Assembly: GCF_018320785.1 (NCBI RefSeq)
Contig: NC_054866.1
Coordinates: 36,185,000-36,248,999 of the forward strand
Direction: 5' to 3'
Length of the DNA stretch: 64,000 nucleotides
Source of the DNA: Cheilinus undulatus
Lineage: Eukaryota > Chordata > Actinopteri > Labriformes > Labridae
In this document: positions 961 to 63,720 of the stretch, one piece after another
How positions within the stretch are numbered: the stretch's first letter is position 1
Layout: each line of letters opens with the position of its first letter
Notes under the pieces: model-generated
Databases searched by the model: none
Told to the model about the DNA's origin: nothing
Seen by the model: the letters and a program-made list of their open reading frames with translations, nothing else
Position numbers and translations under genes: made by a program

Positions 961-1008
961 TCTCTTGAAATCTCTTGAAATCATTTTCTTCTTTTCATTT
1001 ATCCCTTT

Positions 1009-1316
1009 AAAGTCAATTGTATCATATTCTATAATCGATTTCATGAGTCCTCTGTCAAGTAAACATGATCAATACTTTCCTAAAAAAAACCTTTAGTATA
1101 CAATCTGATAAATGCTAAGAAAAAATGCCCTTCAGTGCATTATCGGTTGCAAAAAACACACCTCATGTATCAAATGTGATTCAAAAAATATATACACGTG
1201 AAATGTTATAGCAGCTTTTCTGGAGAGGGATTTTATTTGAAGGTTTAATAAACATCTCAGTTCCAAAAAATGAGACTTTTCTGGCTATTGTTTGAGTTAT
1301 CAGCCTTTACAGTTGT
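1009..1316. repeat. diverged copy of a ~300-bp interspersed repeat
   Basis: It matches the stretches at about 2985-3283 and 7783-8081 in the same order of landmarks: a TGTATCATAT-type start, a CTGATAAATG block, an AATGCCCT block, TGTATCAAATG followed by ATACAAAAAATATATA, then AAACATxTCAGTTC and TTCTGGCTAT. This copy is clearly more diverged than the other two. No coding capacity is seen, so it looks like a non-autonomous element of unknown class. Confidence 0.6.
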
Positions 1317-4810: not shown

Positions 4811-4934
4811 ATGGAGGTCAGTATTAAGGACTTTATGAGGTTTCGGATTTCTTGACTGATAACTTATTAATTCAGCAGGTCACAAGTACCTTGTGTTTAT
4901 TTCAAAGTCATTTTATAATCACAGTTGCAAGAGT

Positions 4935-23372: not shown

Positions 23373-26240
23373 ATGGATGATTTTACAACTTTGCCTCTGT
23401 CCTCTGGCAACCACAGCAGCCGCACCAACATCACATGTTCCCGGGATAATGTCCTGAAGACGGTGGTTTTCCCCGTTCTTTACTCCTTTCTCTTTTTGAT
23501 CGGACTGACTCTTAATGGGGTGGCAGTGTGGGTGTTTTTCCGCATCCCATCCAAGTCTCACTTCATCATCTACCTGAAGAATATTGTGGTTGCAGATGTC
23601 ATCATGACCTTCACGTTCCCTTTTAAGGTACCGTTTCACTTCCTCTTGACACAGAAAGCCACTTTATGGATGTTCCTGATGTGCTTATTGGTGGTTTTTG
23701 AACTATACCAACAATGTTATTATCATGGGGTTTCAAAAAATCTTTACTGAATCATTCAAGTCCAAGTCATTCATTAAAGCTCAATAGTCTATTTCCTTGC
23801 AAGGTTTCAAGAATGCAGTTAAAATGTTCCAAAAATATTACTGAAGTGTACTAAGAGAGATTATTTAACCTTTTGGATTTCTGTATTTCTAGTAACTAAT
23901 TAGCAACACTAAATACGGGGCTGGAGTTTAAAGGTTAATAAATAGTTAACAGATAGTTTGTCAAACTTAGAAAATATGGTAAGGATTGGCATCAGTCAGA
24001 AATATCAGAATTTGGTATGCTGAATGCCCAGTTTGTCTCCATATACTGTGTAGTATTGAAATCATGCAGCTAGGGTACAGGCTGAGACTGAGGGTGACCA
24101 GAATCGTTTAATCCTGCATCTTCCTGCACATGTAGGCTACTGTCAAGTTGTCTGTGTATTTTTTAGTTCTTTAGAGCTGTGATTCTCTGCAGGACCAAAC
24201 TTCAGCAACTTCAAAAAACTCAGAACACAAATCTAATTTATTCAATGAAAAACGCTGCAGTTTGGAGCCCAAATAAAACAAGTATAACTGAACAAAGAGT
24301 GGACAAATCAAAAATGTTTTAAAAGCACAGCATTACAAAAGGAAATGTATGCATGAATTTTAATTTACAGCATTTTCCTGAGAAAAGTTGACAGTTTTTC
24401 CAGGTATTTCCTCGTTATCTGGAGAAAACCAGCTTCTTCAGCCACAGAAATAAAAAATTCATTTTTTTTCCTAAAAATCTACTCATCATTAAGAAAATCC
24501 TCAAAGATACAATTCTGTATTTAATGTATGTTCACTCAGGGCTTCCATAAATACACCCCCCCCCATTTCTTTCCTAGCACACAGTCGCGACCCACTGCAA
24601 TGGGTTTGACGACTCACCAGTCAAAAACTGCTGTTTAAAGCATGCCACTTCTATTTCTCTCTCTGTGTCTGCAATTCTTAAACAGATGAATTTTGATTAA
24701 ACGAGAGTCCATCAACCAATAATCGGTCTAAAAATTGCATGTTGTCAGCCCTAGATATAAAATGACTACTTTTGTCTTTGTATAACTTCATTTAAAATTT
24801 GGTCCCCTGGATTTCTATAAGCTTCAATACAATATGGTACATTTCCCAGACTAGTCAATCTTTTTTCCTAATCTTTTACAATTCGGCATCCCCAATTCCC
24901 TCTATATTTCCTTAAATAATGAGTGCATGACTGTTAATCATTAGGTTAATGATTTCTTTTTCACTTTAACACTTTAATCACATTTAGGTTTCCTAATATT
25001 CCATACATTTGTTAAATACTCCTCCCCAGCAAAGTTATTCATTTCATCTTTGAACCGGCTTGGTAACATTTAGCATCCCTAACATTGTATTCATTTCAAT
25101 TATAAGGATGTTATTAATATTTATTATTCTGTTTTTCATTCCATCTCTCAATCCCTTTGTAGGCAACCTGGCATACCAAGATTTAATTTGTATCCATGTG
25201 TGTATTCACAAAAATGCAACCCTTTAATGACAATTTGGGATCCAAGAGTTTGGTTCATGTTAGGATGCATTAGTTGAAAGTTACATCTTTATAATACATT
25301 TAAACAGGGGAAACTTAGAAAATGTCAGCATATCACCAAACTGTAACAGACTCTGGAAGAATTTAAGTGTTTAATAAAGTGCATGTTTCTACAGGTGTTA
25401 TCAGACTCCAACATCGCCTCCACAGGCCTGCGTATATTTGTGTGTCGGGTTTCTTCAGTGCTCTTCTACCTCACCATGTACATCAGCATCCTCTTCTTCG
25501 GCCTCATCAGCATCGACCGCTGCAGAAAGACTCTGAAGCCCTTCAGGGGGACTAATGCAGCCCGACTGACTCGTCGAAAAATCCTCTCAGGAGCCATCTG
25601 GACGTTTCAACTGATTCTCTGTCTGCCCAACGTGATCCTCACGAGTAAAACCCCCGAGTCCCCGTATTTCAAGTGCAGTGACCTGAAGACAAAGGCTGGG
25701 CTGTACTGGCATGAGGTGGTGAATTATGTCTGCCAGGTTGTGTTCTGGAGCAACCTGGTGACGGTAGTCGTTTGTTATACTCTGATCACTAAGGAGCTGT
25801 ACAGATCATACTCCCGCACTAAATCCCAGGGCTCTAGAGGGACTGTGTGTAAAGCACCGAGTGGAGGAACGGTCCGAAAGCCAGGACAGGCTAAAAGAAA
25901 AATGAATGTAAATGTGTTCCTGGTGCTGGCGGTGTTCTTTGTGTGCTTTGTGCCGTTTCACTTTGCTCGTGTGCCGTACACAATGAGCCAGACTCGAGTG
26001 GTTCTCTTTGACTGCAAACTTAAGCTCTTCTTTTTTCAGCTGAAGGAAAGCACGCTCTTCCTCTCATCTTCCAACTCTGTTCTGGATCCTCTGATCTACT
26101 TCTTCCTCTGTAAGTCGTTCAGGACCACTCTGTTCAAGAGCCTGAGACTGCCGGCTGGAACCTGCAGCTGGTTGCTAAATAGGGGATCAGAGAATGACAC
26201 AGACAGCACCCCTATGAGAGACTCCTCTGTGCATGCATAG
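23373..26240 (+). CDS. p2ry12: P2Y12-like purinergic receptor (gene A), two coding exons
   Basis: Exons 23373-23627 and 25395-26240 join in phase 0 (donor AAG|GTACCG, acceptor TCTACAG|GTG), giving 366 residues with seven membrane segments. P2RY12 is a plasma-membrane Gi-coupled ADP receptor. Marks of the subfamily: FIIYLKN before TM2, FPFK|VLSDS, conserved cysteines C102 and C179, WHEVVNYVCQVVFW and CYTLITKELYRSY in TM5 almost as in mammalian P2Y12, HFARVPYTMSQTR in TM6 with H274 and R277, KEST at 302-305, and DPLIY at 316-320. The N-terminus carries NHSS and NITC glycosylation sites. The ATG follows a clear 3' splice site. Oddities: DRC (126-128) replaces DRY, and intracellular loop 3 is about 20 residues longer than in mammals. 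The 1.77-kb intron in TM2 holds a decayed hAT-like element. P2RY12 orthology is likely; a tree would settle it. Confidence 0.93.
24177..24633. mobile_element. decayed hAT-like element inside gene A intron
   Basis: The right end carries CGCGACCCACTGCAATGGGTT and then CTCACCAGTC...ACTGCTG, the degraded form of the fish hAT terminus GACTCACCAGTTGAGAACCACTG. The left end has CTGTGATTCTCTGCAGGACC. The flanking TCTTTAGA and TTTAAAGC are only roughly alike. It lies wholly in the intron. Confidence 0.45.
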
Positions 26241-32470: not shown

Positions 32471-33188
32471 CTGTCAGTCGTTCCGGTGAAAGTTCTGCGG
32501 CTCTCTGCTATTACGAACTCTGACCCAGGACTTTGCATTGTGGGTAACAGTAGGCAAAGCAGACTGGTCTGATGCATACCGTGAAATTTTCCCAAATCAG
32601 TATGTCATCTGGGTATTTTTGGCATACTGCAACTTTTGCATTTGTTCGCATACTGCATACTACATTTTAGGCAAATCAGTACGCACTGCTAGTATAGTAG
32701 GTAAATTCAGAAACAGCCTCCTCTGTTGTCCTCCTGTTGTCCCACCCCTTTTACACCTGATAGGTTGATCAGAGACTAACTTACACCCTTTTCTCTCTTG
32801 GCTGACACCTGTCTAACCAGTCAACAACTCTCGTCATTGAATAATGCATTCAAGGGCCATTAGAAATGATAAGGTTTTACAATTACTTCACAATGCTCTC
32901 CTTTGGGACATCAATGTGAAATATCGCTGAGAATATATTGTTTAGATCTTATTTAGCACAAAGTACACACTTCTTTCCCTTGATCAAAATGAAAGAAAAT
33001 TTAAACTAAATACACATTAGCACATTTAACCAGGTGCTACATCAAAAATATTGAAATGGACAGAAAATCAACCTCAGAAAGATGCACAGGAAAATCTGGG
33101 GAGTAATTAGTGGGGTTCTGTTAAAGCTGACGATGTGCAAATCCTGTTGACTTAATCTCTGTGTCTCTTTATAAACACAGATTTCAAG

Positions 33189-34178
33189 ATGGCATCTGAC
33201 AACTCTACACTCCTCCGCTCTGACTGTGCTTCCTTTGACTCTGAACTTTTAAATACAGCTGACGCATGCTTTTATTTTCTTTTGTTCCCAATTGCATTTG
33301 TGCTTAATGGCATAGCTGCTTGGGTGTCCTTTCACCTCCAGTCTACCTCTACCTTCATTGTGTATCTAAAAAACCTGGTGGCTGCCGACTTCCTCATGAC
33401 ACTTATGCTCCCACCAATGGCAGCTAGCAGACTATCTGGAGCAACAGTGTGGCTGATGGCGTTTGATTGTCGCTTCTCATCTGTCATTTTCTACAGCTGT
33501 ATGTACACAAGTATCGCCTTAATGGGTCTTATAAGCCTTGACCGCTTCTTCAAAATTGTTCGGCCTTGTGGGAAGGCACTGGGACAAAGCGTCACCTTCA
33601 GTGTTGTTACATCTAGCTTGGTTTGGTTGGTATTATTTGCCGGCACAGCTATCCCAACAATGATTCTGACAGACGAGAGTCCAGTGAATGTAACATCACA
33701 GAACTGCATGTCTCTGAAAAGTCCAACTGCTATGGCCCTCCATAGCTACGTGGTCCTCTCGATGGAACTTCTCTTCTGGATCGTCAGCATACTAATTGTG
33801 TCCTGCTATGTATGCATCACCATGAAAGTCCTACAGTCATTCAGAAACTCTGGGAGCAATAACAGCCAAGGAAGGAAGAGGACCAAGCTGAGGGTCTTCT
33901 TTATACTTCTTGTGTTTTTTGTGTGTTTTGTGCCTCTTCATATTGTACGCATTCCATCTACAATTCATCAACTCTTACACATCCACAGCTGCATGGATTC
34001 GTGGGTGAAAATAGGCCACAAATTTTGCCTGTGGCTCTCGTCTACCAATGCCTGTTTGGACCCCCTACTCTACATCTACCTGTGCAGGGAGTACCGAGAC
34101 AAGCTAGTGGACATGCTGAAAGCTAGAGGGATCTGTGTCGGCTTGTTTTCAGATGAAAAAGAGGAGGATTCCCAGTAG
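33189..34178 (+). CDS. P2Y13/14-like receptor (gene B), intronless coding region
   Basis: A single 329-residue frame with seven membrane segments, of the P2Y12-type Gi-coupled nucleotide receptor family, acting at the plasma membrane. Evidence: FIVYLKNLVAADFLMTLMLP in TM2, CRFSSVIFY in TM3 (shared with mammalian P2RY13), DRF at 118-120, disulphide cysteines C94 and C173, extracellular C13 and C268, VFFVCFVPLHIVRIPST in TM6 with H251 and R254, and NACLDPLLYIYLCREY in TM7. The ATG lies nine bases after a 3' splice site (AACACAG ending at 33180), so a 5' untranslated exon is expected. The lysine usual 14 residues before the DPxxY aspartate is replaced by H277. NST (5) and NVT (167) are possible glycosylation sites. 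It is a clear tandem paralogue of gene C, sharing QSFRNSGSNN before TM6. P2RY13 versus P2RY14 orthology is unresolved. Confidence 0.92.
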   Translation: MASDNSTLLRSDCASFDSELLNTADACFYFLLFPIAFVLNGIAAWVSFHLQSTSTFIVYLKNLVAADFLMTLMLPPMAASRLSGATVWLMAFDCRFSSVIFYSCMYTSIALMGLISLDRFFKIVRPCGKALGQSVTFSVVTSSLVWLVLFAGTAIPTMILTDESPVNVTSQNCMSLKSPTAMALHSYVVLSMELLFWIVSILIVSCYVCITMKVLQSFRNSGSNNSQGRKRTKLRVFFILLVFFVCFVPLHIVRIPSTIHQLLHIHSCMDSWVKIGHKFCLWLSSTNACLDPLLYIYLCREYRDKLVDMLKARGICVGLFSDEKEEDSQ

Positions 34179-38370: not shown

Positions 38371-39692
38371 GAGTGCCTATAGAAAGTATTCACCACATTT
38401 ATTGATTTTTTTAAAACAAACATGGTCAATATAATTTCACTTTATTGACAATGTCAAAGTTAAGATTGATTCATATGAGTATGGTGAATGTCCAGTCACT
38501 GGCTACCATTACACCATGAAGAAAAAAGAACACTTCAAGAAACTCAGTGAAAAGGTGATTGAGAAGTATACTTCTAAGGCACTGAACGTCCCCTGGACTT
38601 TAGTTCAATCCATGAAGACATAAAAGGAGTATGGCACATGTGTAAATCTGCCTAGATCAGGCCATCCTCACAAACTGAGTGACCGTGCAAGAAGGAGACT
38701 AGTGAGAGAGGCCACCAAGACTACTCTGAAGGAGTTACAAGCTTCAGCAGCTGAGATGGAAGAGACTCTGCATACAACAACTGTTGCCTGCTTCTTCACC
38801 ATTCAAAGCTTCATGGGAGAGTGGCAAAGAGAAAGCCACTTGAAGAAAACTCATATCAAATTTGGAATAGAGTTTGCCAAAAAGCATCTTGGAGACTCCA
38901 TGGTCAAGTTGAAGAACGTTCTTTGGTCTGATGAGAACAAAATGGTGTTTTTTGGCCATCACACAAGATGTTACGTTTGGTACCAAACATTGCATATCAC
39001 CACAAATACACCATCTCCACTGTAAAGCAGTGATGGCAGCATCCTGCTGTGGGTATGCTTCTTGGCAGCCAGCACTAGAAAGCTTTTACAAGTAGAGAGT
39101 AAAATAAATGCAGCAAAGGTAGGAAAATCCTGGAGGACAATGTTATTCAGCCTGCAAGAGAACTATGGCTTGGGAGAAAATGTATTTTCCAGCAATACAA
39201 TGACCCAACGCTACACAGAATTGCTTAAAGATAGCAAGGTGAATGTTCTGGAGGGGCCGAGTCAAAGCCCAGACCTCAATCCATTCGAAAATTTGTGTCT
39301 GGACTTAAAAAGGGCTCTTTGTGACCGATCCTTGCGCAACCTGACAGAGCTTGAGCAGTTTTGCAAAGGAGAATGGAGTAAAATTGCAGCATCCAGATGT
39401 GCAAGCCTGATTGAGACTTATTGACACAGACTCAGTGCTGATTGCAGACAAAGGTGTATCTTCTAAGACTTGAAAGAGACTGATGTTTTTTTACAGTCAC
39501 TCTTTTAATATTACGTATTTTTCTTCATTTGACATTACTTTTAAAAATCCGTTTTCACTTTGACATTTGAGAGTTTTTTGTAATTATTTGTTGTTAATAA
39601 AAAGCCTAGTTATATTGTCATGATTGGTTTGATTTACAAAATCAATAAAAAGGGTAAAACATCCAAGGGGGTGAACACTTTTATAGGCACTG
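38371..39692 (+). pseudogene. near full-length dead Tc1/mariner element with transposase remnants
   Basis: A 1,322-bp element flanked by TA (38369-38370 and 39693-39694). Terminal repeats are GAGTGCCTATAGAAAGTATTC on the left and the reverse complement of GTGAACACTTTTATAGGCAC on the right. Inside, the + strand encodes broken pieces of Tc1 transposase: LRSGHPHKLSD-like hook sequence near 38655, NVLWSDENKMVFFGHH near 38930 (first catalytic region), and SQSPDLNPFENLCLDLK near 39270 followed by ELEQFCKGEWSKI. Stops and frameshifts separate them, so no full enzyme can be made. It lies just upstream of gene C's first coding exon, and any promoter role is untested. Confidence 0.85.
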
Positions 39693-39852: not shown

Positions 39853-40970
39853 GTGAGTGAAGAACTCCGAAACTTTCCTTTTAAGTGAAAAAACACAAAG
39901 ATGATAAAATATGAAGACAGTTTGGATTTTGTGGTCTAAATGTGTTTTTATTTCTCATAGGTACAGCGACGGCATCAAGTCAACCATCTTACAATGAGTC
40001 TGGTTGTAAGGGATTTCTTGACAACACACATTTTACCTCCATGCTTTACTTCCTCATATTCCCATTAGCTTTGCTGCTAAACAGCGTGGCAGCCTGGGTG
40101 TCCTTGCACCTCAAATCCGCCACCACTTTCATTGTGTACTTGAAAAATCTTGTAGCTGCTGACCTTATCATGACTGTGATCGTGCCGATCAAAGCTGCAA
40201 GTGATATGCCGGGTGCATCGACTGCTTTGTTTATCCTGTCTTGTTATTTAAGCTCCTTTCTCTACAGCACCCTGTATACCTGTATTGCCTTGCTGGGCTT
40301 GATAAGTCTAGATCGTTTCTTCAAGATCATGATGCCTTACAGCAAAATGTTCAGTAGCGTGACTTTTAGCAAAGTGGTGTCAGGATTAGTGTGGGTGAGC
40401 GTTTTTGGAGGCTCAGCTTTACCAAACATTATCCTGAATGACAAATCAGTCGCCAACATGACAGAGATCAGCTCCTGCATGGCACTAAAAGGAGAGGCAG
40501 GGTATGCTGCTCATGAAAATACAGTAATTTTCATGAATGTTTTTTTCTGGCTCATCAGCATGGTCATCGCGGTTTGCTATATTTGCATCACAAACAAAGT
40601 GATCCAGTCTTTCAGAAACTCAGGCAGCAATAACAACCAGGGAAAGCAGAAGATCAAGCTACGCGTCTTTCTTGTTCTCATCGTGTTTTTCGTGTCGTTC
40701 GGACCGTACCACGTCATCAGGATCCCGTACACTTTCCAACAAGTCAACTACTCATCGACCACCAGCTGCTCTTATCTGTTAGGAAAGTTTGGCAAGGAAA
40801 TCACCCTGTGGTTTGCCACCACGAACATCTGCATGAACCCACTTCTCTATGTGTTTCTGTGCAGAGAGTTTAAGGAGGAACTGAGGTCTTTGATGAAAAG
40901 TTTGTCTGTTTCATTTCATGTAGTCTTTGTGGGGAAAGCAGACAGCAATATACCTCCAACAAAGCTCTAA
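39825..40970 (+). CDS. P2Y13/14-like receptor (gene C), two coding exons
   Basis: Main exon 39961-40970 has no own ATG before TM1 and starts at an acceptor (TATTTCTCATAG|GTACAG). Joining it in phase 1 to 39825-39852 gives 345 residues. It is a plasma-membrane P2Y12-type receptor: FIVYLKNLVAADLIMTV in TM2, cysteines C104 and C182, DRF at 127-129, GPYHVIRIPYTFQQ in TM6 with H260 and R263, KEITLW in TM7 with K288, and NICMNPLLYVFLC. NPLLY at 302-306 has asparagine where this subfamily normally has aspartate (DPxxY). NES, NMT and NYS are possible glycosylation sites outside the membrane. The shared QSFRNSGSNN loop and overall similarity mark it as a tandem duplicate of gene B. Likely ligand: a nucleotide or nucleotide sugar, inferred from the family. 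The N-terminal exon is predicted from splice signals. Confidence 0.9.
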
Positions 40971-41289
40971 CAGAGCTTGAGTTTGAGGTTATTATTGTGG
41001 CTTTATAAGAGTGTGTTCTATGTCCTACAAATTACTTTTTACCGACTTATTGATTCGAGCCTGGATTGAAAAAAAAAACAGCCTCAGTAGCTTTTGTGCT
41101 CAAACCAACTTCGTGTGCTTAGATCTACAGCGTTTAGGCTTAAAAATGTCTGTTGATTCTCAAATCTTTGGTTGCATGCTAAAATGCCTTGCTCTCATGC
41201 TAAAACCATGTTTTCTCTCTTTCTGCATCTTCCTCTAATCTCTGTTTGCATCTGCCTCTTCTCAAAATGTTTTTTAATCTAATTATCCT

Positions 41290-41586
41290 CAGTGGCTCAG
41301 ATTTCCAATATTCAGCATGCTCGTTCTTTTCAGCATCTCTGTCACTCTTCTAGGATCTTCTCCCCTGTTTTTCTGCATCTCAGTCTTCCCTTCTACCCTG
41401 CCTCACCCTCTACTCTTTTTCTCTTCCTCTTTATGCATTTTCCTCTTCTCCATTTTTCCTGCATCTTTCTCATCTCTAACTGCAGGTTATGCTTTTTATT
41501 TGTTTCCCTTTATCTCCCTCCTCTCTCTTCCTACATCTCTCTCTTCTCTTGCACAACACCCATCCCTTCACTTTTTTTCCCTGTAA
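41290..41586. repeat. C/T-rich low-complexity stretch
   Basis: Repeated TCTTCTCC, CATCTCTC and TTTCCCT words over about 300 bases. Two overlapping open frames here are composition artefacts. Confidence 0.5.
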
Positions 41587-42340
41587 CTTAGCAAAAAGAT
41601 ATGGTACAAGTATTTATAGTAGTAAGTAGTATGTAAGTACTTAGAAAACATTAACAAATAAGCAATTAACTACCTGTATCCATTAGTGAACCATTACTTA
41701 ACAAGTAGATAAGGAACACATAATTATGATAGTAGGTAACCAAGGTGTAACCAACCACTAGTTAACCATAAACATAGGTATGACTCAATAAAGTTAATAT
41801 TTATTGAAGCCAAAACTATGTGCTAGTAAACATTAAAATTTTTTTTACTAACTTCTAGTTAGTACCACAAATCAATTAGAAACTAACTACTAGTTGATAA
41901 TCAAGAAAATAACTAACTATTAGTTAGCATTTATCAAACATCACCTGACAAAAAGTAGAAAAAAAAAAAATAACAAAAAGCAAATTTTAATTATTTAGAA
42001 GTTTAAAAAACTACTAGAAGAATAAACCAATGAGTTACTAACTACTCGTAGACCATTAAGCAATGAGTCACGAACTACTAGTTAACCATTAAGCAATAAG
42101 TAACCTTTTACTAGATAACCATTGAGGCAGCTTTAACTACTAGTAAACCATTAAGCAACGAGTACCTAACTACTAGTTAACCATTAAGGTAGGTATAACT
42201 AACTACTAGTAAACCATTAAGCAATGAGTCTATAACTACTAGTAAACCATTAAGCAATAAGTCTAGTAAACCATTAAGCGATGAGTCACTAACTACTAGT
42301 AAACCAATAAGGCAGTTATAACTAACTACAAGTAAACCAT

Positions 42341-42342
<2 letters not shown>

Positions 42343-42418
<76 letters not shown>
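42343..42418. repeat. (GATA)n tract 1 in satellite
   Basis: Perfect GATA repeat between AACCATTA on the left and CTTTATAGAGGCAGCATTAA on the right. The same junctions recur at all eight tracts in the array. Confidence 0.95.
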
Positions 42419-43482
42419 CTTTATAGAGGCAGCATTAAGGTAGGTATAACTAACTACTCGTAAACCATTAAGCAATGAGTCACTAACTACTAGTAAACCA
42501 TTAAGGTAGGTATAACTAACTACAAGTAAACCATTAAGGTAGGTATAACTAACTACAAGTAAACCATTAAGCCATGAGTCACTAACTACTAGTAAACCAT
42601 TAAGGTAGGTATAACTAACTACAAGTAAACCATTAAGGTAGGTATAACTAACTACAAGTAAACCATTAAGCAATGAGTCACTAACTACTCGAAAACCATT
42701 AAGGTAGGTATAACTAACTACAAGTAAACCATTAAGGTAGGTATAACTAACTACTCGTAAACCATTAAGCAATGAGTCACTAACTACTAGTAAACCATTA
42801 AGGTAGGTATAACTAACTACAAGTAAACCATTAAGGTAGGTATAACTAACTACTCGTAAACCATTAAGCAATGAGTCACTAACTACTAGTAAACCATTAA
42901 GGTAGGTATAACTAACTACAAGTAAACCATTAAGCTAGGTATAACTAACTACAAGTAAACCATTAAGCCATGAGTCACTAACTACTAGTAAACCATTAAG
43001 GTAGGTATAACTAACTACAAGTAAACCATTAAGGTAGGTATAACTAACTACAAGTAAACCATTAAGCAATGAGTCACTAACTACTCGAAAACCATTAAGG
43101 TAGGTATAACTAACTACAAATAAACCATTAAGGTAGGTATAACTAACTACTCGTAAACCATTAAGCAATGAGTCACTAACTACTAGTAAACCATTAAGGT
43201 AGGTATAACTAACTACAAGTAAACCATTAAGGTAGGTATAACTAACTACTCGTAAACCATTAAGCAATGAGTCACTAACTACTAGTAAACCATTAAGGTA
43301 GGTATAACTAACTACAAGTAAACCATTAAGGTAGGTATAACTAACTACTAGTAAACCATTAAGCAATGAGTCACTAACTACTAGTAAACCATTAAGCAAT
43401 AAGTCTAGTAAACCATTAAGCGATGAGACACTAACTACTAGTAAACCAATAAGGCAGTTATAACTAACTACGAGTAAACCAT

Positions 43483-43483
<1 letters not shown>

Positions 43484-43536
<53 letters not shown>
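43484..43536. repeat. (GATA)n tract 2 in satellite
   Basis: GATA repeat with the same left and right junction sequences as tract 1. Confidence 0.95.
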
Positions 43537-43837
43537 CTTTATAGAGGCAGCATTAAGGTAGGTATAACTAACTACTCGTAGACCATTAAGCAATGAGTCA
43601 CGAACTACTAGTTAACCATTAAGCAATAAGTAACCTTTTACTAGATAACCATTGAGGCAGCTTTAACTACTAGTTAACCATTAAGCAACGAGTACCTAAC
43701 TACTAGTTAACCATTAAGGTAGGTATAACTAACTACTAGTAAACCATTAAGCAATAAGTCTAGTAAACCATTAAGCGATGAGTCACTAACTACTAGTAAA
43801 CCAATAAGGCAGTTATAACTAACTACGAGTAAACCAT

Positions 43838-43839
<2 letters not shown>

Positions 43840-43879
<40 letters not shown>
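43840..43879. repeat. (GATA)n tract 3 in satellite
   Basis: Shortest GATA tract, same junctions. Confidence 0.95.
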
Positions 43880-44349
43880 CTTTATAGAGGCAGCATTAAG
43901 GTAGGTATAACTAACTACTCGTAAACCATTAAGCAATGAGTCACTAACTACTAGTAAACCATTAAGGTAGGTATAACTAACTACAAGTAAACCATTAAGG
44001 TAGGTATAACTAACTACTCGTAAACCATTAAGCAATGAGTCACTAACTACTAGTAAACCATTAAGGTAGGTATAACTAACTACAAGTAAACCATTAAGGT
44101 AGGTATAACTAACTACTCGTAAACCATTAAGCAATGAGTCACTAACTACTAGTAAACCATTAAGGTAGGTATAACTAACTACAAGTAAACCATTAAGGTA
44201 GGTATAACTAACTACTAGTAAACCATTAAGCAATGAGTCACTAACTACTAGTAAACCATTAAGCAATAAGTCTAGTAAACCATTAAGCGATGAGACACTA
44301 ACTACTAGTAAACCAATAAGGCAGTTATAACTAACTACGAGTAAACCAT

Positions 44350-44351
<2 letters not shown>

Positions 44352-44395
<44 letters not shown>
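44352..44395. repeat. (GATA)n tract 4 in satellite
   Basis: GATA repeat, same junctions. It is preceded by the GCGATGAGACACTAAC variant also seen before tract 2. Confidence 0.95.
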
Positions 44396-44729
44396 CTTTA
44401 TAGAGGCAGCATTAAGGTAGGTATAACTAACTACTCGTAGACCATTAAGCAATGAGTCACGAACTACTAGTTAACCATTAAGCAATAAGTAACCTTTTAC
44501 TAGATAACCATTGAGGCAGCTTTAACTACTAGTAAACCATTAAGCAACGAGTACCTAACTACTAGTTAACCATTAAGGTAGGTATAACTAACTACTAGTA
44601 AACCATTAAGCAATGAGTCTATAACTACTAGTAAACCATTAAGCAATAAGTCTAGTAAACCATTAAGCGATGAGTCACTAACTACTAGTAAACCAATAAG
44701 GCAGTTATAACTAACTACTCGTAAACCAT

Positions 44730-44731
<2 letters not shown>

Positions 44732-44795
<64 letters not shown>
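44732..44795. repeat. (GATA)n tract 5 in satellite
   Basis: GATA repeat. The left junction uses CTCGTAAACCATTA instead of CGAGTAAACCATTA. Confidence 0.95.
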
Positions 44796-45232
44796 CTTTA
44801 TAGAGGCAGCATTAAGGTAGGTATAACTAACTACTCGTAAACCATTAAGCAATGAGTCACTAACTACTAGTAAACCATTAAGGTAGGTATAACTAACTAC
44901 TTGTAAACCATTAAGCAATGAGTCACTAACTACTAGTAAACCATTAAGGTAGGTATAACTAACTACAAGTAAACCATTAAGGTAGGTATAACTAACTACT
45001 CGTAAACCATTAAGCAATGAGTCACTAACTACTAGTAAACCATTAAGGTAGGTATAACTAACTACAAGTAAACCATTAAGGTAGGTATAACTAACTACTA
45101 GTAAACCATTAAGCAATGAGTCTATAACTACTAGTAAACCATTAAGCAATAAGTCTAGTAAACCATTAAGCGATGAGTCACTAACTACTAGTAAACCAAT
45201 AAGGCAGTTATAACTAACTACGAGTAAACCAT

Positions 45233-45233
<1 letters not shown>

Positions 45234-45282
<49 letters not shown>
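45234..45282. repeat. (GATA)n tract 6 in satellite
   Basis: GATA repeat, same junctions. It is the last tract before a 3.1-kb stretch without GATA. Confidence 0.95.
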
Positions 45283-48200
45283 CTTTATAGAGGCAGCATT
45301 AAGGTAGGTATAACTAACTACTCGTAAACCATTAAGCAATGAGTCACGAACTACTAGTAAACCATTAAGGTAGGTATAACTAACTACAAGTAAACCATTA
45401 AGGTAGGTATAACTAACTACAAGTAAACCATTAAGGTAGGTATAACTAACTACTCGTAAACCATTAAGCAATGAGTCACTAACTACTAGTAAACCATTAA
45501 GGTAGGTATAACTAACTACAAGTAAACCATTAAGGTAGGTATAACTAACTACTCGTAAACCATTAAGCAATGAGTCACTAACTACTAGTAAACCATTAAG
45601 GTAGGTATAACTAACTACAAGTAAACCATTAAGGTAGGTATAACTAACTACTCGTAAACCATTAAGCAATGAGTCACTAACTACTAGTAAACCATTAAGG
45701 TAGGTATAAATAACTACAAGTAAACCATTAAGGTAGGTATAACTAACTACAAGTAAACCATTAAGGTAGGTATAACTAACTACTCGTAAACCATTAAGCA
45801 ATGAGTCACTAACTACTAGTAAACCATTAAGGTAGGTATAACTAACTACAAGTAAACCATTAAGGTAGGTATAACTAACTACTCGTAAACCATTAAGCAA
45901 AGAGTCACTAACTACTAGTAAACCATTAAGGTAGGTATAACTAACTACAAGTAAACCATTAAGGTAGGTATAACTATCTACAAGTAAACCATTAAGGTAG
46001 GTATAACTAACTACTCGTAAACCATTAAGCAATGATTCACTAACTACTAGTAAACCATTAAGGTAGGTATAACTAACTACTCGTAAACCATTAAGCAATG
46101 AGTCACTAACTACTAGTAAATCATTAAGGTAGGTATAACTAACTACAAGTAAACCATTAAGGTAGGTATAACTAACTACAAGTAAACCATTAAGCAATGA
46201 GTCACTAACTACTAGTAAACCATTAGGGTAGGTATAACTAACTACAAGTAAACCATTAAGGTAGGTATAACTAACTACTAGAAAACCATTAAGGTAGGTA
46301 TAACTATCTACAAGTAAACCATCAAGCAATGAGTCACTAACTACTAGTAAACCATTAAGGTAGGTATAACTAACTACTCGAAAACCATTAAGGTAGGTAT
46401 GACTAACTACTCGAAAACCATTAAGGTAGGTATAACTAACTACAAGTAAACCATTAAGGTAGGTATAACTAACTACTCGTAAACCATTAAGCAATGAGTC
46501 ACTAACTACTAGTAAACCATCAAGCAATGAGTCACTCACTACTAGTAAACCATTAAGGTAGGTATAACTAACTACTTGAAAACCATTAAGGTAGGTGTAA
46601 CTATCTACAAGTAAACCATTAAGCAATGAGTCACTAACTACTCGAAAACCATTAAGGTAGGTATAACTAACTACTCGAAAACCATTAAGGTAGGTATAAC
46701 TATCTACAAGTAAACCATTAAGCAATGAGTCACTAACTACTAGTAAACCATTAAGGTAGGTATAACTAACTACAAGTAAACCATTAAGGTAGGTATAACT
46801 AACTACTAGTAAACCATTAAGCAATGAGTCTATAACTACTAGTAAACCATTAAGCAATAAGTCTAGTAAACCATTAAGCGATGAGTCACTAACTACTAGT
46901 AAACCATTAAGGTAGGTATAACTAACTACTTGAAAACCATTAAGGTAGGTATAACTATCTACAAGTAAACCATTAAGCAATGAGTCACTAACTACTCGAA
47001 AACCATTAAGGTAGCTATAACTAACTACTCGAAAACCATTAAGGTAGGTATAACTATCTACAAGTAAACCATTAAGCAATGAGTCACTAACTACTAGTAA
47101 ACCATTAAGGTAGGTATAACTAACTACAAGTAAACCATTAAGGTAGGTATAACTAACTACTCGTAAACCATTAAGCAATGAGTCACTAACTACTAGTAAA
47201 CCATTAAGGTAGGTATAACTAACTACTAGAAAACCATTAAGGTAGGTATAACTATCTACAAGTAAACCATCAAGCAATGAGTCACTAACTACTAGTAAAC
47301 CATTAAGGTAGGTATAACTAACTACTCGAAAACCATTAAGGTAGGTATGACTAACTACTCGAAAACCATTAAGGTAGGTATAACTAACTACAAGTAAACC
47401 ATTAAGGTAGGTATAACTAACTACTCGTAAACCATTAAGCAATGAGTCACTAACTACTAGTAAACCATCAAGCAATGAGTCACTCACTACTAGTAAACCA
47501 TTAAGGTAGGTATAACTAACTACTTGAAAACCATTAAGGTAGGTATAACTATCTACAAGTAAACCATTAAGCAATGAGTCACTAACTACTCGAAAACCAT
47601 TAAGGTAGGTATAACTAACTACTCGAAAACCATTAAGGTAGGTATAACTATCTACAAGTAAACCATTAAGCAATGAGTCACTAACTACTAGTAAACCATT
47701 AAGGTAGGTATAACTAACTACAAGTAAACCATTAAGGTAGGTATAACTAACTACTAGTAAACCATTAAGCAATGAGTCTATAACTACTAGTAAACCATTA
47801 AGCAATAGGTCTAGTAAACCATTAAGCAATGAGTCACTAACTACTAGTAAACCATTAAGGTAGGTATAACTAACTACTTGAAAACCATTAAGGTAGGTAT
47901 AACTATCTACAAGTAAACCATTAAGCAATGAGTCACTAACTACTCTAAAACCATTAAGGTAGCTATAACTAACTACTCGAAAACCATTAAGGTAGGTATA
48001 ACTATCTACAAGTAAACCATTAAGCAATGAGTCACTAACTACTAGTAAACCATTAAGGTAGGTATAACTAACTACAAGTAAACCATTAAGGTAGGTATAA
48101 CTAACTACTCGTAAACCATTAAGCAATGAGTCACTAACTACTAGTAAACCATTAAGGTAGGTATAACTAACTACAAGTAAACCATTAAGGTAGGTATAAC

Positions 48201-48341
48201 TAACTACTAGTAAACCATTAAGCAATGAGTCTATAACTACTAGTAAACCATTAAGCAATAAGTCTAGTAAACCATTAAGCGATGAGTCACTAACTACTAG
48301 TAAACCAATAAGGCAGTTATAACTAACTACGAGTAAACCAT

Positions 48342-48343
<2 letters not shown>

Positions 48344-48391
<48 letters not shown>
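48344..48391. repeat. (GATA)n tract 7 in satellite
   Basis: GATA repeat, same junctions. It lies 1,237 bases upstream of tract 8. Confidence 0.95.
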
Positions 48392-49578
48392 CTTTATAGA
48401 GGCAGCATTAAGGTAGGTATAACTAACTACTCGTAAACCATTAAGCAATGAGTCACTAACTACTAGTAAACCATTAAGGTAGGTATAACTAACTACAAGT
48501 AAACAATTAAGGTAGGTATAACTAACTACAAGTAAACCATTAAGGTAGGTATAACTAACTACTCGAAAACCATTAAGGTAGGTATGACTAACTACTCGAA
48601 AACCATTAAGGTAGGTATAACTAACTACAAGTAAACCATTAAGGTAGGTATAACTAACTACTCGTAAACCATTAAGCAATGAGTCACTAACTACTAGTAA
48701 ACCATCAAGCAATGAGTCACTCACTACTAGTAAACCATTAAGGTAGGTATAACTAACTACTTGAAAACCATTAAGGTAGGTATAACTATCTACAAGTAAA
48801 CCATTAAGCAATGAGTCACTAACTACTCGAAAACCATTAAGGTAGGTATAACTAACTACTCGAAAACCATTAAGGTAGGTATAACTATCTACAAGTAAAC
48901 CATTAAGCAATGAGTCACTAACTACTAGTAAACCATTAAGGTAGGTATAACTAACTACAAGTAAACCATTAAGGTAGGTATAACTAACTACTAGTAAACC
49001 ATTAAGCAATGAGTCTATAACTACTAGTAAACCATTAAGCAATAAGTCTAGTAAACCATTAAGCGATGAGTCACTAACTACTAGTAAACCATTAAGGTAG
49101 GTATAACTAACTACTTGAAAACCATTAAGGTAGGTATAACTATCTACAAGTAAACCATTAAGCAATTAGTCACTAACTACTCTAAAACCATTAAGGTAGC
49201 TATAACTAACTACTCGAAAACCATTAAGGTAGGTATAACTATCTACAAGTAAACCATTAAGCAATGAGTCACTAACTACTAGTAAACCATTAAGGTAGGT
49301 ATAACTAACTACAAGTAAACCATTAAGGTAGGTATAACTAACTACTCGTAAACCATTAAGCAATGAGTCACTAACTACTAGTAAACCATTAAGGTAGGTA
49401 TAACTAACTACAAGTAAACCATTAAGGTAGGTATAACTAACTACTAGTAAACCATTAAGCAATGAGTCTATAACTACTAGTAAACCATTAAGCAATAAGT
49501 CTAGTAAACCATTAAGCGATGAGTCACTAACTACTAGTAAACCAATAAGGCAGTTATAACTAACTACGAGTAAACCAT

Positions 49579-49580
<2 letters not shown>

Positions 49581-49635
<55 letters not shown>
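49581..49635. repeat. (GATA)n tract 8 in satellite
   Basis: Last GATA repeat of the array, same junctions. Confidence 0.95.
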
Positions 49636-49636
<1 letters not shown>

Positions 49637-51250
49637 CTTTATAGAGGCAGCATTAAGGTAGGTATAACTAACTACTCGTAAACCATTAAGCAATGAGTCA
49701 CTAACTACTAGTAAACCATTAAGGTAGGTATAACTAACTACAAGTAAACAATTAAGGTAGGTATAACTAACTACTCGTAAACCATTAAGCAATGAGTCAC
49801 TAACTACTAGTAAACCATTAAGGTAGGTATAACTAACTACTAGTAAACCATTAAGGTAGGTATAACTAACTACTCGTAAACCATTAAGCAATGAGTCACT
49901 AACTACTAGTAAACCATTAAGGTAGGTATAACTAACTACTAGTAAACCATTAAGGTAGGTATAACTAACTACTCGTAAACCATTAAGCAATGAGTCACGA
50001 ACTACTAGTAAACCATTAAGGTAGGTATAACTAACTACTAGTAAACCATTAAGGTAGGTATAACTAACTACTCGTAAACCATTAAGCAATGAGTCACGAA
50101 CTACTAGTAAACCATTAAGGTAGGTATAACTAACTACTCGAAAACCATTAAGGTAGGTATAACTAACTACTCGAAAACCATTAAGGTAGGTATAACTATC
50201 TACAAGTAAACCATTAAGGTAGGTATAACTAACTACTCGTAAACCATTAATCAATGAGTCACTAACTACTAGTAAACCATTAAGCAATGAGTCACTAACT
50301 ACTTGAAAACCATTAAGGTAGGTATAACTATCTACAAGTAAACCGTTAAGCAATGAGTCACTAACTACTCGAAAACCATCAAGCAATGAGTCACTAACTA
50401 CTAGTAAACCATTAAGGTAGGTATAACTAACTACTCGAAAACCATTAAGGTAGGTATAACTAACTACTCGAAAACCATTAAGGTAGGTATAACTAACTAC
50501 AAGTAAACCATTAAGGTAGGTATAACTAACTACTCGTAAACCATTAAGCAATGAGTCACTAACTACTAGTAAACCATCAAGCAATGAGTCACTAACTACT
50601 AGTAAACCATCAAGCAATGAGTCACTAACTACTAGTAAACCATTAAGGTAGGTATAACTAACTACTAGTAAACCAATAAGGTAGGTATAACTAACTACTC
50701 GAAAACCATTAAGCAATGAGTCACTAACTACTAGTTAACCATCAAGCACTGAGTAACTAACTACTAGATAAACATAATGGCCATTATAACTAACCACTAG
50801 TTAACCATTAATGGAGGTATTATTTGTAACCAGTTAACCCTTAACTAAGGTATAACTAACTACTACGTGACATTAACAAATGAGAAACAAGCTTCTAGTT
50901 GACCATTATCTAATGAGTAACTAGGTAACAATAATCCAGTGAGTAATTAATAGTTAACAAACAAGAAGGATATAACTAACAACTAGTCAGCCATTATTTA
51001 ACCCTTACAACTGTAAATGTACACAAATTTTACATTAGTTAACCATTACTTAACAGATGAATGAGGTACTAGAATTTTGCAAAGTTACCTACCTTGTTAG
51101 TAGTTACCTCCTAACAATTTAAAATGTAATAGCAGTTAACTAGTATTTAGTTACTCATAGGTAAATGTAGTTATTTACTAATGGTTAACTGGCAGTTAGT
51201 TACTCTTTCATTAATGGTGAATTATGCATTTGTTACCTGATGTTTTTTCA

Positions 51251-53980
51251 AAATGTGTGTTCCTTATCTATCTGTTAAATCATAATTAACTTTTGGTTAG
51301 CTATAGCTACTCATTCGTTACCAACTCAATGTGAAATGTGTGCACCTTATTGTAAAGTATTACCCTGTCTTCTTCTTTGTGCTTTATTTCTTACCAAAAT
51401 GTCTGCTGGCTCTGAAATCTTCATGGGCTTGCTCAGATTTCCTATACTCATGTTTTCTCTTCCTACATCTCTAAGCCATTAGATGTGACCCAAACAAGCG
51501 GTGAATGGTTTGTGCAGGAGCACAGGAAATTTGAGCAGTAACTAAAGATCTGAGAGCAGGCAGTCACCTTGAGCTTAAACTGAGCAAATTTAAGCACAAG
51601 GAGGCAGATTTGAGCACAGAAGCAGGTTGTTACATACATCCTTTAATCAAGTGCTATCAACCATTGACTGTATAATGATATGGGCAGCATGGACCCATCT
51701 ACTTTAGTTTGAAGCAGAAAGTCTCATTAATGGAAAATTCAGTGAATGCATTATTATTTGTTGATACATTTCCCCCCTTGCTGTTTCTCCTCTTCTCCGC
51801 CAGTCTGTATGAGATTTCTGCATCTGTCCACAGAGGTGTCAATCACCTACTATTCTTCTTTTACTATTTTTTTTAAACATAAAACAACATTGTAAAACAA
51901 AACTGCTTAGAAAATGGAACACTTGGACCTGTAAGAGCAAGGTAATCTCTAACTAAAACCACAGAATCTAGGTTTGACTAAATAATTTAAACATGCATTT
52001 TAACTATGAAGTTTGCATTCCTCTATTAACATGGAGAAGACAGGGTTTATGTTTATATTGAATCAGCCACCAGGGGGAGCTCTACATGTTTTGACTTCAC
52101 TCTCAGGCAGCTGTTGCTCTATTTCAATAAAAAGTCTATGATGTAAAATATGTCTGCTTTAGTTAAATGTCAGATTAAAATTCAAATATTTTGTTTTGCT
52201 TTGACTTTTAAAAGCTGTACTGAAGTTGTGTATTTGCTGTTTTACTGCGGCTGGTCACTTTAATATCTTTGAAAACATGAACAGGAAGTACAAGAGGAAT
52301 GAGATAAACAGTGTGCTAGAGAGGAAGATGTTCATGTGCTGTTTTTATCAACAAACTTCAGATGTTTTAAAATTAGAAGGCAAATAGAATTTTACAATGG
52401 GAGAGAGAAAAAAAAGCTGTCATATAAAGCTGTTAAAATCTAGTTCATGTTTGTGCTCATACTCGTGTTTTTTATGATTGTGGTCATTGTAAAAAAAAAA
52501 AAAAGGGGGGGGGGGGTTAGTGTGTTTATCAGGACTTTTTCAGTGTGTATCACCTGGCATTATGTGAACCGCATGCCTCTGAGCCCCAGCATGAAAAGTT
52601 ACTGAGTGAAAAGGACGTGTGCAGAAACCTCCTTGATAAAAAGATAAAAATAAATAAGATGTTAAGTAAAATTAATTCTGCACTCATGAATCCTTCCAAA
52701 AACATGTGCAATTAGGTGTTATTGTGCTCTGTGTTCCAGAAATCAAATGAACACCTTTATAAAAAAAAAAAACAATTTCTAATTAGAATTACATTATTAA
52801 TTTTCTTTACAGTTTTAATTTCTGATCCAATTGTTTTAAATTGCATTTTCATTGTTTAAAGTACTTCATTTTCATTGTAAATGCTTGCCCTTTTAGCCTT
52901 GACTGTCCTATCATTGCTTTTTTATTGCTACCTCCTCAGCTTTGAGGGTTTTGTTTGTACTTGCTTGATTTTATTTGCATTTGCTTTTCTCCTGTCTGTA
53001 CCTCTGCTCCAGAGTAAAAGATGACTCTCTCTAAGTGTGTTTTACCTATAAATAAATGATGATGACTGTGAAATTTTTATCTTTTTAATTGAAAGCACCA
53101 GTGAGGAGTTCCTCATTGGTTATTAAATAGATTTAAATAGATACTGATGCCTCACTTCTACTGCAGGAAACAAAACCAGCAATAACAACACTGGTGGATT
53201 CAGAGGCAGGCAGAGAGGGTGATGGCCTACCCTGGTACCCTTATGTTATAACAGAATGCAGTGAAGTGCCTTTGGGTGGTCCCTATGATCAAGTGCCCAC
53301 CAGGGTGCCCTCCCTGTGGTCAAAAAGTGAAGAAGTTCCTATGGTTCTCAAGATTGATTGTATTAATCCTGATAAATTAATAACTACAATTACAATGCAT
53401 TGATCTATTTTAATGAAGATTAATCGCATGCCTTTCAACACACTTCAGTGAAGCCACTGCAGAGGCTCCCTGCAGCCACAGTGATTTAAAATACAGTAAG
53501 TCCTTAATGCAGAGTTTCTGTTAGCTGGCATTTACTGGTCTTTGGCCATTTTCACAGGCGGATGTCCAGCAGATTAGAATATTGATGGCCAAAATGTCTG
53601 AAAAATATGCCAATTACCAAATATGAAATGAGCAATAATTTCATATTGATAGGTTTCAAGAACCTTTGAATAAAAATTTACAGTTTTATAAACTCATAGT
53701 AGTTTTACTATGACCTACTTCCTGTGCAGTGCTGGGGTTGGTAACATATGTACCTTACACAGCACATGGCTAATGTAGATGGTGAATATTCATGAAATCA
53801 ATGTGGATGACATCAAAAAAGCCAGGGAAGTATATAGCTACTGAAAAGTATACAGCAAAATCAGCAGTATGGACGGATTTTGAACTGGCCAAGACTTCAA
53901 GAAATACCGGGACAAGGATGGGCCTGGGCCAAGCAGAGAGTTGTAGTGGACTTTGATGAGTGGGTAAATCTACCTATGAC
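51251..53980. other. no gene recognised
   Basis: AT-rich sequence with a poly-A to poly-G run at about 52491-52516. The 69-codon frame at 53194-53403 includes a GTGCCC-rich repeat-like stretch but no domain. No exon supported. Confidence 0.4.
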
Positions 53981-62338: not shown

Positions 62339-62981
62339 ATGAACAGCACCTTCTCAAACACGTCCAAGTGCATCCGGGACACCAGTGTGACAGCTGTGGT
62401 CTTCCCCTGTCTGTACAGCATCCTCTTTGTAGTTGCCCTCATACTGAACTCCCTGGCTGGATGGATCTTCTTCAGCATCCCCAGCACCTCAACATTTGTT
62501 GTCTTCCTAAAAAATGTGGTAAGACATGGTGGATTTATCCTTTTAAAATAATGAAATCAGTGATATCAATAAATAAACCTTTTCTTTTCAGGTGGTGGCT
62601 GACTTGCTGATGACCCTGACCATCCCTCTGAGAATCTTAAGCGACGCTGGCGTGGGTTCCTGGAAACTCCGTGCCTTCCACTGCAGATACTCCGCTGTTC
62701 TCTTCTACATCACTATGTACATCAGCATCCTCCTGCTGGGCCTCATCAGCCTGGACCGCTACCTGAAAATAGTCAAGCCGTTTGGGAAGTGTGCCCTGCA
62801 GCGGGTGCGTGTCGGCCAGGTGCTGAGTGCAGGGATCTGGGTGGTGATGCTTTCTCTGGCATTGCCTAATGTTATCCTGAGTGACCAGCCGCCACGGTTG
62901 TCTGGAGGCCGACTCAAATGTACGTCTATGAAGAGCAAGGCTGGCCTGCTGTGGCACGAGGGATTCAACTACTTCTGTCAG
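62339..62981 (+). CDS. P2Y13/14/GPR87-like receptor (gene D), 5' part
   Basis: Exons 62339-62518 and 62592-62981 join in phase 0 across a 73-base intron (GTG|GTAAGA ... TTTTCAG|GTG). They give the first 190 residues, TM1 to the start of TM5. The second exon ends at CAG|GTAGAT in phase 0, and the remaining exon with TM5-TM7 must lie beyond base 64000. Family marks: SKCIRD in the N-terminus, GWIFFSIPSTSTF, LKNVVVADLLMTLTIPLRILSDAG, LRAFHCRYSAVLFY, DRYLKIVKPFG (DRY intact at 115-117), cysteines C91 and C170, and WHEGFNYFCQ. N2 and N7 are glycosylation sites. The ATG sits 20 bases after a 3' splice site (CCTCTTCAG ending 62319), so there is a 5' untranslated exon. The sequence has features of P2RY13, P2RY14 and GPR87, so orthology is unresolved. 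Confidence 0.88.
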
Positions 62982-63720
62982 GTAGATATAACAGAAAGAT
63001 TTTTACAAATATCAGGGTAAATAAGAATTAGAAAGGAAGGGCAGTGCAGGCCACACATTTCATTTTGATGTGTAGTTGAAGCAAGCAAATGGTGAGCTAA
63101 TGTTAGAGGGAACAGGGTAACAGCAGGCTTGGTTTTGTCAAAAGGTTTTAAAAAAGGAGGTCTTCTGCATTCATAAAAGGTAATAATAATATGTCATTCT
63201 TTACTCTAGTGATAGTTCAAATACTTTTTGCAAAACCAGTGCACTGAGGACTGTAGCCTCTGTCAACTTAGCCAACCCAACACCCTATATATGGGGATAA
63301 TTATACTGTAATCATTGTCAAACACAGAACCAAATATGACCATATAAGGAAACTAATACAAAGTCACTTATCTCAAATGTAAAATCATCACATTTTCTAA
63401 AACCTTTCTGCTCTAAACCCTCTGGATTTCTTTCAATGTTTCTAACTGGTCTTAAAATTAAAAAGGTTACATGCTAAAGAAAATGCAGTCCCTATCAAAT
63501 ACTTTGAAAGTAAAAACAAATAGAAAAGGCCGAAGTATATCTGTTAAAATCTTAGAGTTACAGTAAAACATTGTGAAAATACTTAAAATGCTGACTCAAT
63601 TTAAACTCATATGGTATTTGTACCCATAAAAGTATATAAAATATGCAATATCCACATCAGCCCACAGTATTAACTGGAACCCTCAAAGATCCCACCATAA
63701 GTCTGATTTATGCATGGTTC
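62982..63720. other. start of gene D intron 2
   Basis: Begins with the donor GTAGAT after the TM5-start codon. AT-rich, with no exon or domain recognised before the window ends. Confidence 0.6.

Follow-up and report, generated by a model that had tools for sequence, protein, structure and literature searches.

The window, a stretch of 64,000 nucleotides of Cheilinus undulatus DNA, carries on its + strand a P2Y13/P2Y14-like receptor ORF (39915-40970; Pfam 7tm_1; best PDB matches P2Y13, E 3.2e-61, and P2Y14, E 2.6e-56) and the next receptor exon, which is P2Y12/P2Y14-like (62577-63020; Pfam 7tm_1; best PDB match P2Y14, E 3.7e-36). A preliminary description had placed a large array of 33-bp repeats, with two monomer types and GATA tracts, between two receptor genes, and the Pfam and PDB matches confirm this placement.

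Structure of the 33-bp array

TRF delimits the 33-bp tandem array at 42028-50811 on the + strand (269 copies, 76% match) and returns a second row, with a period of 99 bp, for 42433-50811. Cutting the array into monomers gave 263 segments, including 232 of exactly 33 bp, 11 of 24 bp and eight with GATA. By strict prefix, 76 of these monomers are of type S and 122 of type G; identity is 94.5% within S, 94.8% within G and 76.8% between the two, such that TRF and monomer clustering bear out the two monomer types described previously. The monomers are mostly arranged as 99-bp S-g-G trimers, and these are in turn part of larger segment duplications: exact monomer runs recur at offsets of 867, 948, 1237, 2185, 2389, 3109 and 4346 bp when GATA lengths are ignored. 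A scan of the window copy of the transposon described below revealed that all ORFs of 90 aa or more contained wholly within it are translations of the array. At 8.8 kb, interstitial and with receptor genes on either side, the array does not qualify as a classical heterochromatic satellite, a class that forms very long arrays in heterochromatin or at the centromere.

The eight (GATA)n tracts, all on the + strand and located by TRF and the monomer cut, occupy 42341-42418, 43483-43536, 43838-43879, 44350-44395, 44730-44795, 45233-45282, 48342-48391 and 49579-49636, with GATA repeats of 76, 52, 40, 44, 64, 48, 48 and 56 bp, respectively. Every one of them (8/8) is entered through AACCATTA on the left and left through CTTTATAGAGGCAGCATTAA on the right, and the flanks resemble those of tract 1 at 98-99% (left 100 bp) and 98-100% (right 60 bp). 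Because the junctions are common to all eight tracts and the flanks are nearly identical, the tracts belong to one higher-order unit, as had been proposed. We infer that the GATA tract had a single origin and was then copied along with its flanking sequence.

Transposon ends around the array

To characterize the borders of the array, we used a profile of the ends of a dispersed repeat family, built from eight ends at other loci and run on the window and on the first 20 of the loci compared (8 of these 20 supplied the ends and match the profile by construction). The window contains 192 profile matches at E 0.05 or better, all within 41652-51364, with 189 on the + strand and three on the - strand, while the reversed-sequence control yielded three matches, none above 15.0 bits and each in the same locus (L027). 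On the left, profile matches and a pairwise score define a degenerate terminal/subterminal region on the + strand (41583-41990), with matches at 41652-41722 (E 6.7e-9) and 41709-41772 (E 3.2e-7); the segment 41560-41800 aligns to the end consensus with a score of 88, compared to a maximum of 34 among shuffled sequences (0/1000). The score of its outermost ~50 bases was reached by 20/1000 shuffles, so that these bases are not reliably recognised and the exact left tip is uncertain. Beyond the array, degenerate family repeats still in the orientation of the left arm (50812-51084, +; matches at 50874-50923, 50947-51029 and 51033-51084) are followed by the right terminal inverted repeat on the - strand (51134-51364), defined by profile matches and by alignment with 11 other ends, an alignment that also reveals the 33-bp sub-repeat within the family ends. 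Its tip, at 51364, is marked by a - strand match at 51364-51247 that covers model positions 1-125 (60.7 bits, E 2.3e-17), with additional - strand matches at 51267-51217 and 51227-51168. Family ends in inverted orientation, + at 41652-41772 and - at 51364-51247, therefore flank the array, the outermost left tip being eroded.

The array appears not to be a free-standing satellite but to occupy the interior of a transposon copy at about 41583-51364, which belongs to a dispersed family of DNA elements with inverted ends. The reading as a stand-alone satellite had missed that the array sits inside a transposon copy and that its monomer is the sub-repeat of that transposon; the limits given at the time, 41590-51250, are wider than the clean array and come close to those of the transposon copy.

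Direct BLAST comparison of the left and right flanks yields only a scatter of short inverted matches within the element, the best of them 79% over 48 bases, and the inverted-end structure is clearly visible only through comparison with other loci. An inverted pair also lies beyond the proposed borders (41090-41209 / 51505-51623, 69% over 121 columns), with no further copy in the window or the 40 other loci at E 1e-3, and may stem from a larger, older inverted structure surrounding the window copy.

The family and its arrays across the genome

The window copy was compared with 40 other loci of the same genome, 20 picked by monomer similarity (and hence biased to arrays) and 20 by end similarity. 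The 123-bp end consensus has at least 72 matches in this genome (best 40 of 137 candidates scored), and matches starting within its first 5 bases are 76-93% identical to it. Tips were recognised at 33 of the 41 loci, 8 of which supplied the profile. The sub-repeat lies on both strands, with the + strand to the left by median position, at 14 of the first 20 loci and on a single strand at 6 of them, and TRF arrays occur in both orientations among family loci. Such inverted arms of direct sub-repeats, found in dispersed copies, are as expected of a non-autonomous foldback-type element. A literature search with the tip string TTTACAATAAGG gave no match.

Seven two-ended copies, 947-1,687 bp long, were used to look for a target-site duplication. 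Their paired flanks are 62% identical at exactly k=8 and shift 0, compared to 33% for cross-paired flanks, and k=8 is alone among k 2-12 in giving this signal (permutation p 0.001, best of 11 k); in this test the left tip of L019 came from a fuzzy pattern below the tip-recognition threshold, and some tips (L035 right, L045 right) were extrapolated from profile matches starting a few bases inside. The seven copies thus carry a decayed 8-bp target-site duplication, as in hAT elements, while that of the window copy was looked for and is unreadable. As the duplication is 8 bp long, fitting hAT or P, the family is probably hAT-like with a foldback architecture; this length is also compatible with P or Merlin. 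hAT domains are common in the genome (150 scored of 765 candidates), and, among the matches listed and with positions compared by eye, none was seen adjoining a family end.

The window array is the longest among the 41 family loci examined, and to that extent the earlier description of it as unusual holds; on the other side, arrays of at least 1.7 kb occur at 6/41 loci, in a sample enriched for arrays, monomer similarity having been the criterion for 20 of the 40 other loci. We compared the array units with a family sub-repeat written by eye, which equals the TRF unit of L015, itself not among the compared units. Seven of the eight array types are 0.79-0.91 identical to this sub-repeat (S 0.88, G 0.79), whereas 100 shuffles of it, made against the S unit only, reached at most 0.76; the 49-bp unit of L040, at 0.61, is on par with the shuffles. 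Between loci, and leaving L040 out, unit identity is 0.69-0.88. The arrays are internally homogeneous, yet different between loci, and since their units are mostly as near, or nearer, to the family sub-repeat than to one another, the arrays probably grew independently and in place. The L017 unit is closer to that of L050 (0.88) than to the sub-repeat (0.82), and these two arrays may therefore not be independent. The window array looks younger than the insertion, because 212/232 of its 33-mers have an identical twin elsewhere in the array, compared to the 76-93% identity of family ends to their consensus.

These observations raise the possibility, which we put forward tentatively, that one family seeds satellites repeatedly through a runaway-prone 33-bp sub-repeat. 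Six or more long arrays would have formed in this way, the majority independently and with units of their own, and the GATA tract of the window would be a marker of the order of segment duplications. If true, the family would offer a natural replicate experiment on how satellites start and form higher-order units.

Origin of the array and comparable systems

Very probably, the array arose by amplification of the sub-repeat within a single copy of this dispersed DNA transposon, whose inverted arms are built of ~33-bp repeats. A transposon copy with few 33-bp units in its left arm would have inserted, and slippage and unequal exchange in this arm would then have raised the unit number to about 260. 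Divergence of the S from the G type, formation of the S-g-G trimer and duplication of segments containing a single GATA tract would also belong to this account. The window copy has probably lost its mobility and persists as debris, and if it affects the P2Y receptor genes at all, it probably does so incidentally.

Large near-identical segments, such as the 16-monomer exact run at an offset of 1237 bp (GATA length ignored), mis-assemble easily, and an assembly artefact could account for part of the length and repetition. This is improbable, as the window is without N and as the GATA tracts vary in length (40-76 bp) and the monomers by point changes (58 distinct sequences among 263 segments), both expected for real duplications. 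It is a little less likely still that an ordinary euchromatic minisatellite adjoins unrelated transposon ends by chance: the weak left tip and the unreadable target-site duplication of the window copy would fit, whereas the 33-bp unit also lies within the family ends and recurs at many other family loci, in arrays both short and long and often in both orientations within a locus. Arrival of the array whole, as a mobile satellite cassette expanded before or during transposition, would agree with the long arrays of several family copies and with the likeness of the L017 and L050 units, yet we regard it as very unlikely in view of the variation of units by locus, of the absence of GATA tracts of at least four units from all 40 other family loci, and of the distance of the window monomers from any other locus among the matches listed (best-scoring 83% over 88 bases; highest identity 85% over 54 bases). 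Least likely of all is an array under selection for a role at the P2Y receptor cluster, for instance as an enhancer, an insulator or a source of piRNAs, to which its position about 0.6 kb past the upstream receptor ORF might point; neutral transposon decay and repeat turnover are sufficient, and an Rfam scan of the whole window gave no match at the gathering threshold.

The proposed amplification within a transposon copy takes the place of the more obvious reading, in which the array is a separate satellite that might have a regulatory role. The birth of satellites from transposon-internal repeats is a known route, and here its forms, from short two-ended copies through intermediate arrays to an 8.8-kb array with higher-order structure, are found within one genome. 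Akin to the window family, gadMor-hAT-1784 and gadMor-hAT-8043 of Atlantic cod are non-autonomous, hAT-derived fish elements with ~600-bp TIRs of tandem repeats, and a sister form has retained one TIR, in the form of a tandem array (insertions averaging 5,838 bp in length, 2 TEs, chromosome 7); in contrast, their unit is 167-169 bp rather than 33, they are located at inversion breakpoints, and the sections of the report used here mention no GATA tract, compared to eight in the window (PMC12368964). In Drosophila virilis, repeats within the TIRs of Tetris, an apparently non-autonomous foldback element, likewise form satellite-like arrays of kb size (TIR-220), and no autonomous partner of Tetris was found, although its unit is ~220 bp, its host is an insect and its amplification is tied to beta-heterochromatin (PMC4079207). 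Tandem arrays of variable copy number also arise from or inside the Xenopus MITEs Xstir and miDNA4 (Hikosaka and Kawahara 2004; Scalvenzi and Pollet; both via the review PMC12628747), a likeness by description and not by unit sequence, with miDNA4 described as a Tc1/mariner MITE. Finally, Galileo (P superfamily) of Drosophila willistoni has foldback-like long TIRs and a TSD of 7 or 8 bp; it differs in its assignment through its transposase, its ~140-bp repeats and its palindromic target-site motif, while its longest copy (9,021 bp) resembles the window copy in being made up of two TIRs that contain direct tandem repeats; this Galileo copy lacks a transposase segment (PMC4168063).

Monomers, GATA tracts and duplicated segments

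Tandem Repeats Finder (TRF) delimited a 33-bp tandem array at 42028-50811 of the window (269 copies, 76% match) and also reported a row with a period of 99 bp (42433-50811) and eight rows of TAGA. Cutting the array at the AACCATTAA motif to delimit monomers yielded 263 segments, most of them (232) 33 bp long; 11 measured 24 bp, eight carried GATA and the remainder were of odd size. By strict prefix the two main types are S (AACCATTAAGCAATGAGTCACTAACTACTAGTA, n=76) and G (AACCATTAAGGTAGGTATAACTAACTACTAGTA, n=122). Identity among S copies is 94.5% and among G copies 94.8%, falling to 76.8% across the types; TRF, the motif cut and these identities bear out the two-type 33-bp array of the preliminary description. 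A frequent order in which S is followed by g (a G variant with ACAAG) and then by G accounts for the 99-bp period. Within the window array an identical twin exists for 212 of the 232 full-length monomers, and eight runs of nine or more monomers recur exactly (GATA lengths being disregarded in the scoring), at offsets of 867, 948, 1237, 2185, 2389, 3109 and 4346 bp, indicating that the duplicated segments far exceed the S-g-G trimer in size.

The eight GATA tracts (76, 52, 40, 44, 64, 48, 48 and 56 bp from first to eighth) all have AACCATTA at the left junction and CTTTATAGAGGCAGCATTAA at the right, as had been claimed. Compared with the flanks of the first tract, the left 100 bp are 98-99% and the right 60 bp 98-100% identical. 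In light of these near-identical flanks and common junctions, a single original tract was most likely copied together with its surroundings and altered in length afterwards. GATA runs of at least four units were absent from the 40 other loci of the transposon family to which the array-bearing element belongs.

An inverted-ended transposon around the array

A search of the genome (1.17 Gb, 46 contigs) with the window monomer returned 213 matches; beyond the window locus, the best-scoring among the matches listed was 83% identical over 88 bases, and the highest identity among them was 85% over 54 bases. Among 20 loci retrieved from these matches, several have in common, at their start or end, a terminal sequence (consensus GGTAACACTTTACAATAAGGTACACACATTTTGCATAGTTAGTAGGTAACGAATAAGTAACTAACTACTAGTTAACCATTAG...), which the window carries at 51364 on the minus strand, reading inward. 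An end profile made from eight ends of other loci (the window left out) aligned, from model position 1 to 125, with the right end of the window copy (E 2.3e-17, 60.7 bits); two plus-strand matches, with E 6.7e-9 and E 3.2e-7, fall on its left side at 41652-41772. All 192 window matches at E 0.05 or better (189 plus, three minus) fall in 41652-51364, and a reversed-sequence control of the profile produced three matches, none above 15.0 bits and each of them in another family locus, L027. The preliminary reading of a 33-bp satellite thus stands as an observation of the array and only in part as an interpretation, since the array lies inside a transposon copy (~41583-51364) with profile-matched ends.

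The left tip is eroded over its outermost ~50 bases, whose score 20 of 1000 shuffles equalled; for the larger left end, none of 1000 did. Comparison of the flanks also revealed an inverted match between 41090-41209 and 51505-51623 (69% over 121 columns, E 8e-7), just outside both proposed borders, which counts against clean borders. Searches of the window and of the 40 loci at E 1e-3 found no further copy of this pair; it possibly represents the ends of an older element enclosing the window copy in a nested arrangement.

A 123-bp end consensus matched 72 places in the genome (best 40 of 137 candidates scored), and retrieval of 20 more loci brought the total to 41, window included. Tips scored above threshold in 33 of the 41 (eight of them profile sources) and in none of the other eight; short two-ended copies are present, e.g. 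L021 2622-3568 (947 bp) and L044 2256-3341 (1,086 bp). Profile matches lay on both strands in 14 of the 20 first-retrieved loci, with plus matches leftward by median position, and on a single strand in six; the both-strand layout corresponds to the inverted arms of foldback elements. Across seven two-ended copies, flank identity over the eight bases abutting the tips was 62%, whereas mismatched pairs gave 33% (permutation p 0.001, corrected to ~0.01 because eleven lengths were tried); the remaining lengths in 2-12 gave p of at least 0.15 and the remaining shifts identities of at most 43%. An 8-bp duplication would be compatible with hAT, and the genome has many hAT transposase domains (best 150 of 765 candidates scored). 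Because this duplication length is also compatible with P or Merlin, and because comparison by eye placed no hAT domain next to a family end among the listed positions, assignment to the hAT superfamily is probable, not proven.

Array growth across the family

The family sub-repeat used as reference (AACCATTAACAAATGAGTAACTAACTACTAGTT) is identical to the TRF unit of L015 and agrees with the inner portion of the end consensus. Window units scored 0.88 (S) and 0.79 (G) against it, and other units 0.88 (L027 left array), 0.82 (L027 right array), 0.82 (L017), 0.91 (L009), 0.88 (L050) and 0.61 (L040); as 100 shuffles of the sub-repeat against S reached a maximum of 0.76, the G score and those near 0.8 lie only modestly over chance. 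The 49-bp unit of L040 fails this comparison, although the locus nonetheless has a family tip; it forms a 3.7-kb array (5021-8730) whose relation to the 33-bp sub-repeat is not clear-cut. With L040 excluded, unit scores between loci were 0.69-0.88, and the sub-repeat was the best or tied-best match outside the own locus for six of seven units. The L017 unit is nearer to that of L050 (0.88) than to the sub-repeat, so that these two arrays may be of one origin. In the six arrays outside the window (at five loci), neighbouring copies are 82-92% alike.

TRF-covered length reached at least 1.7 kb in six of the 41 loci, the window being the largest (8855 bp), followed by L027 (4939), L040 (4392), L017 (2025), L009 (1849) and L050 (1714). 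In L027 both inverted arms of one copy, at 515-2715 (+) and 2718-5455 (-), have grown into long arrays, and their units differ in length (33 versus 32 bp) and are 0.73 identical, a pattern that separate enlargement of each arm would produce.

Among end matches that begin no further in than base five of the consensus, identity to it is 76-93% (80% for the window end), while most window monomers have an identical twin, which argues for an old insertion and later array growth. The element would have inserted long ago and decayed, and its left arm would later have expanded in place via slippage and unequal exchange; the structure suggests an S/G split, formation of the trimer, growth of one GATA tract and segment duplication. 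Array growth was repeated and probably mostly independent, and this recurrence in a single family of a single genome is the mildly interesting point.

Arrays grown from transposon-internal repeats are an already established kind, of which the window array is another case. As far as the accounts describe them, the architecture is alike in Tetris of Drosophila virilis, an array from transposon-internal repeats (PMC4079207), the MITE-derived arrays of Xenopus, per a review (PMC12628747), Galileo copies with tandem repeats within extended TIRs (PMC4168063), and the hAT-derived fish element gadMor-hAT-1784, with ~600-bp TIRs built of 167-169-bp tandem repeats, and its one-armed form gadMor-hAT-8043 (PMC12368964). 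Here that architecture is combined with a 33-bp unit, higher-order structure and a GATA cassette. We found no description of the family in open-licence literature; it may well be listed in Repbase or Dfam.

Receptor genes and other window features

The upstream neighbour of the element is a P2Y13/P2Y14-like receptor ORF (39915-40970; PDB match P2Y13, E 3.2e-61) that ends ~0.6 kb before it, and the next receptor exon identified downstream is P2Y12/P2Y14-like (62577-63020). Other receptor ORFs (7tm_1) lie at 25347-26240 and 33156-34178. Nothing in these sequence findings suggests an influence of the array on the receptor genes. Transposase fragments at 11529-11945 and 39026-39424 match Pfam DDE_3, the second under Pfam's cut-off; we read them as Tc1/mariner-type, 'Tc1' being an interpretive label. 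Near-identical translated stretches at 3391-4257 and 8192-9030, ~4.8 kb apart, suggest either that a segment was duplicated locally or that another repeat is present twice, and TRF reported degenerate AT-rich repeats of short period, of the ATATGGTACGATACA kind, at 16044-16823.
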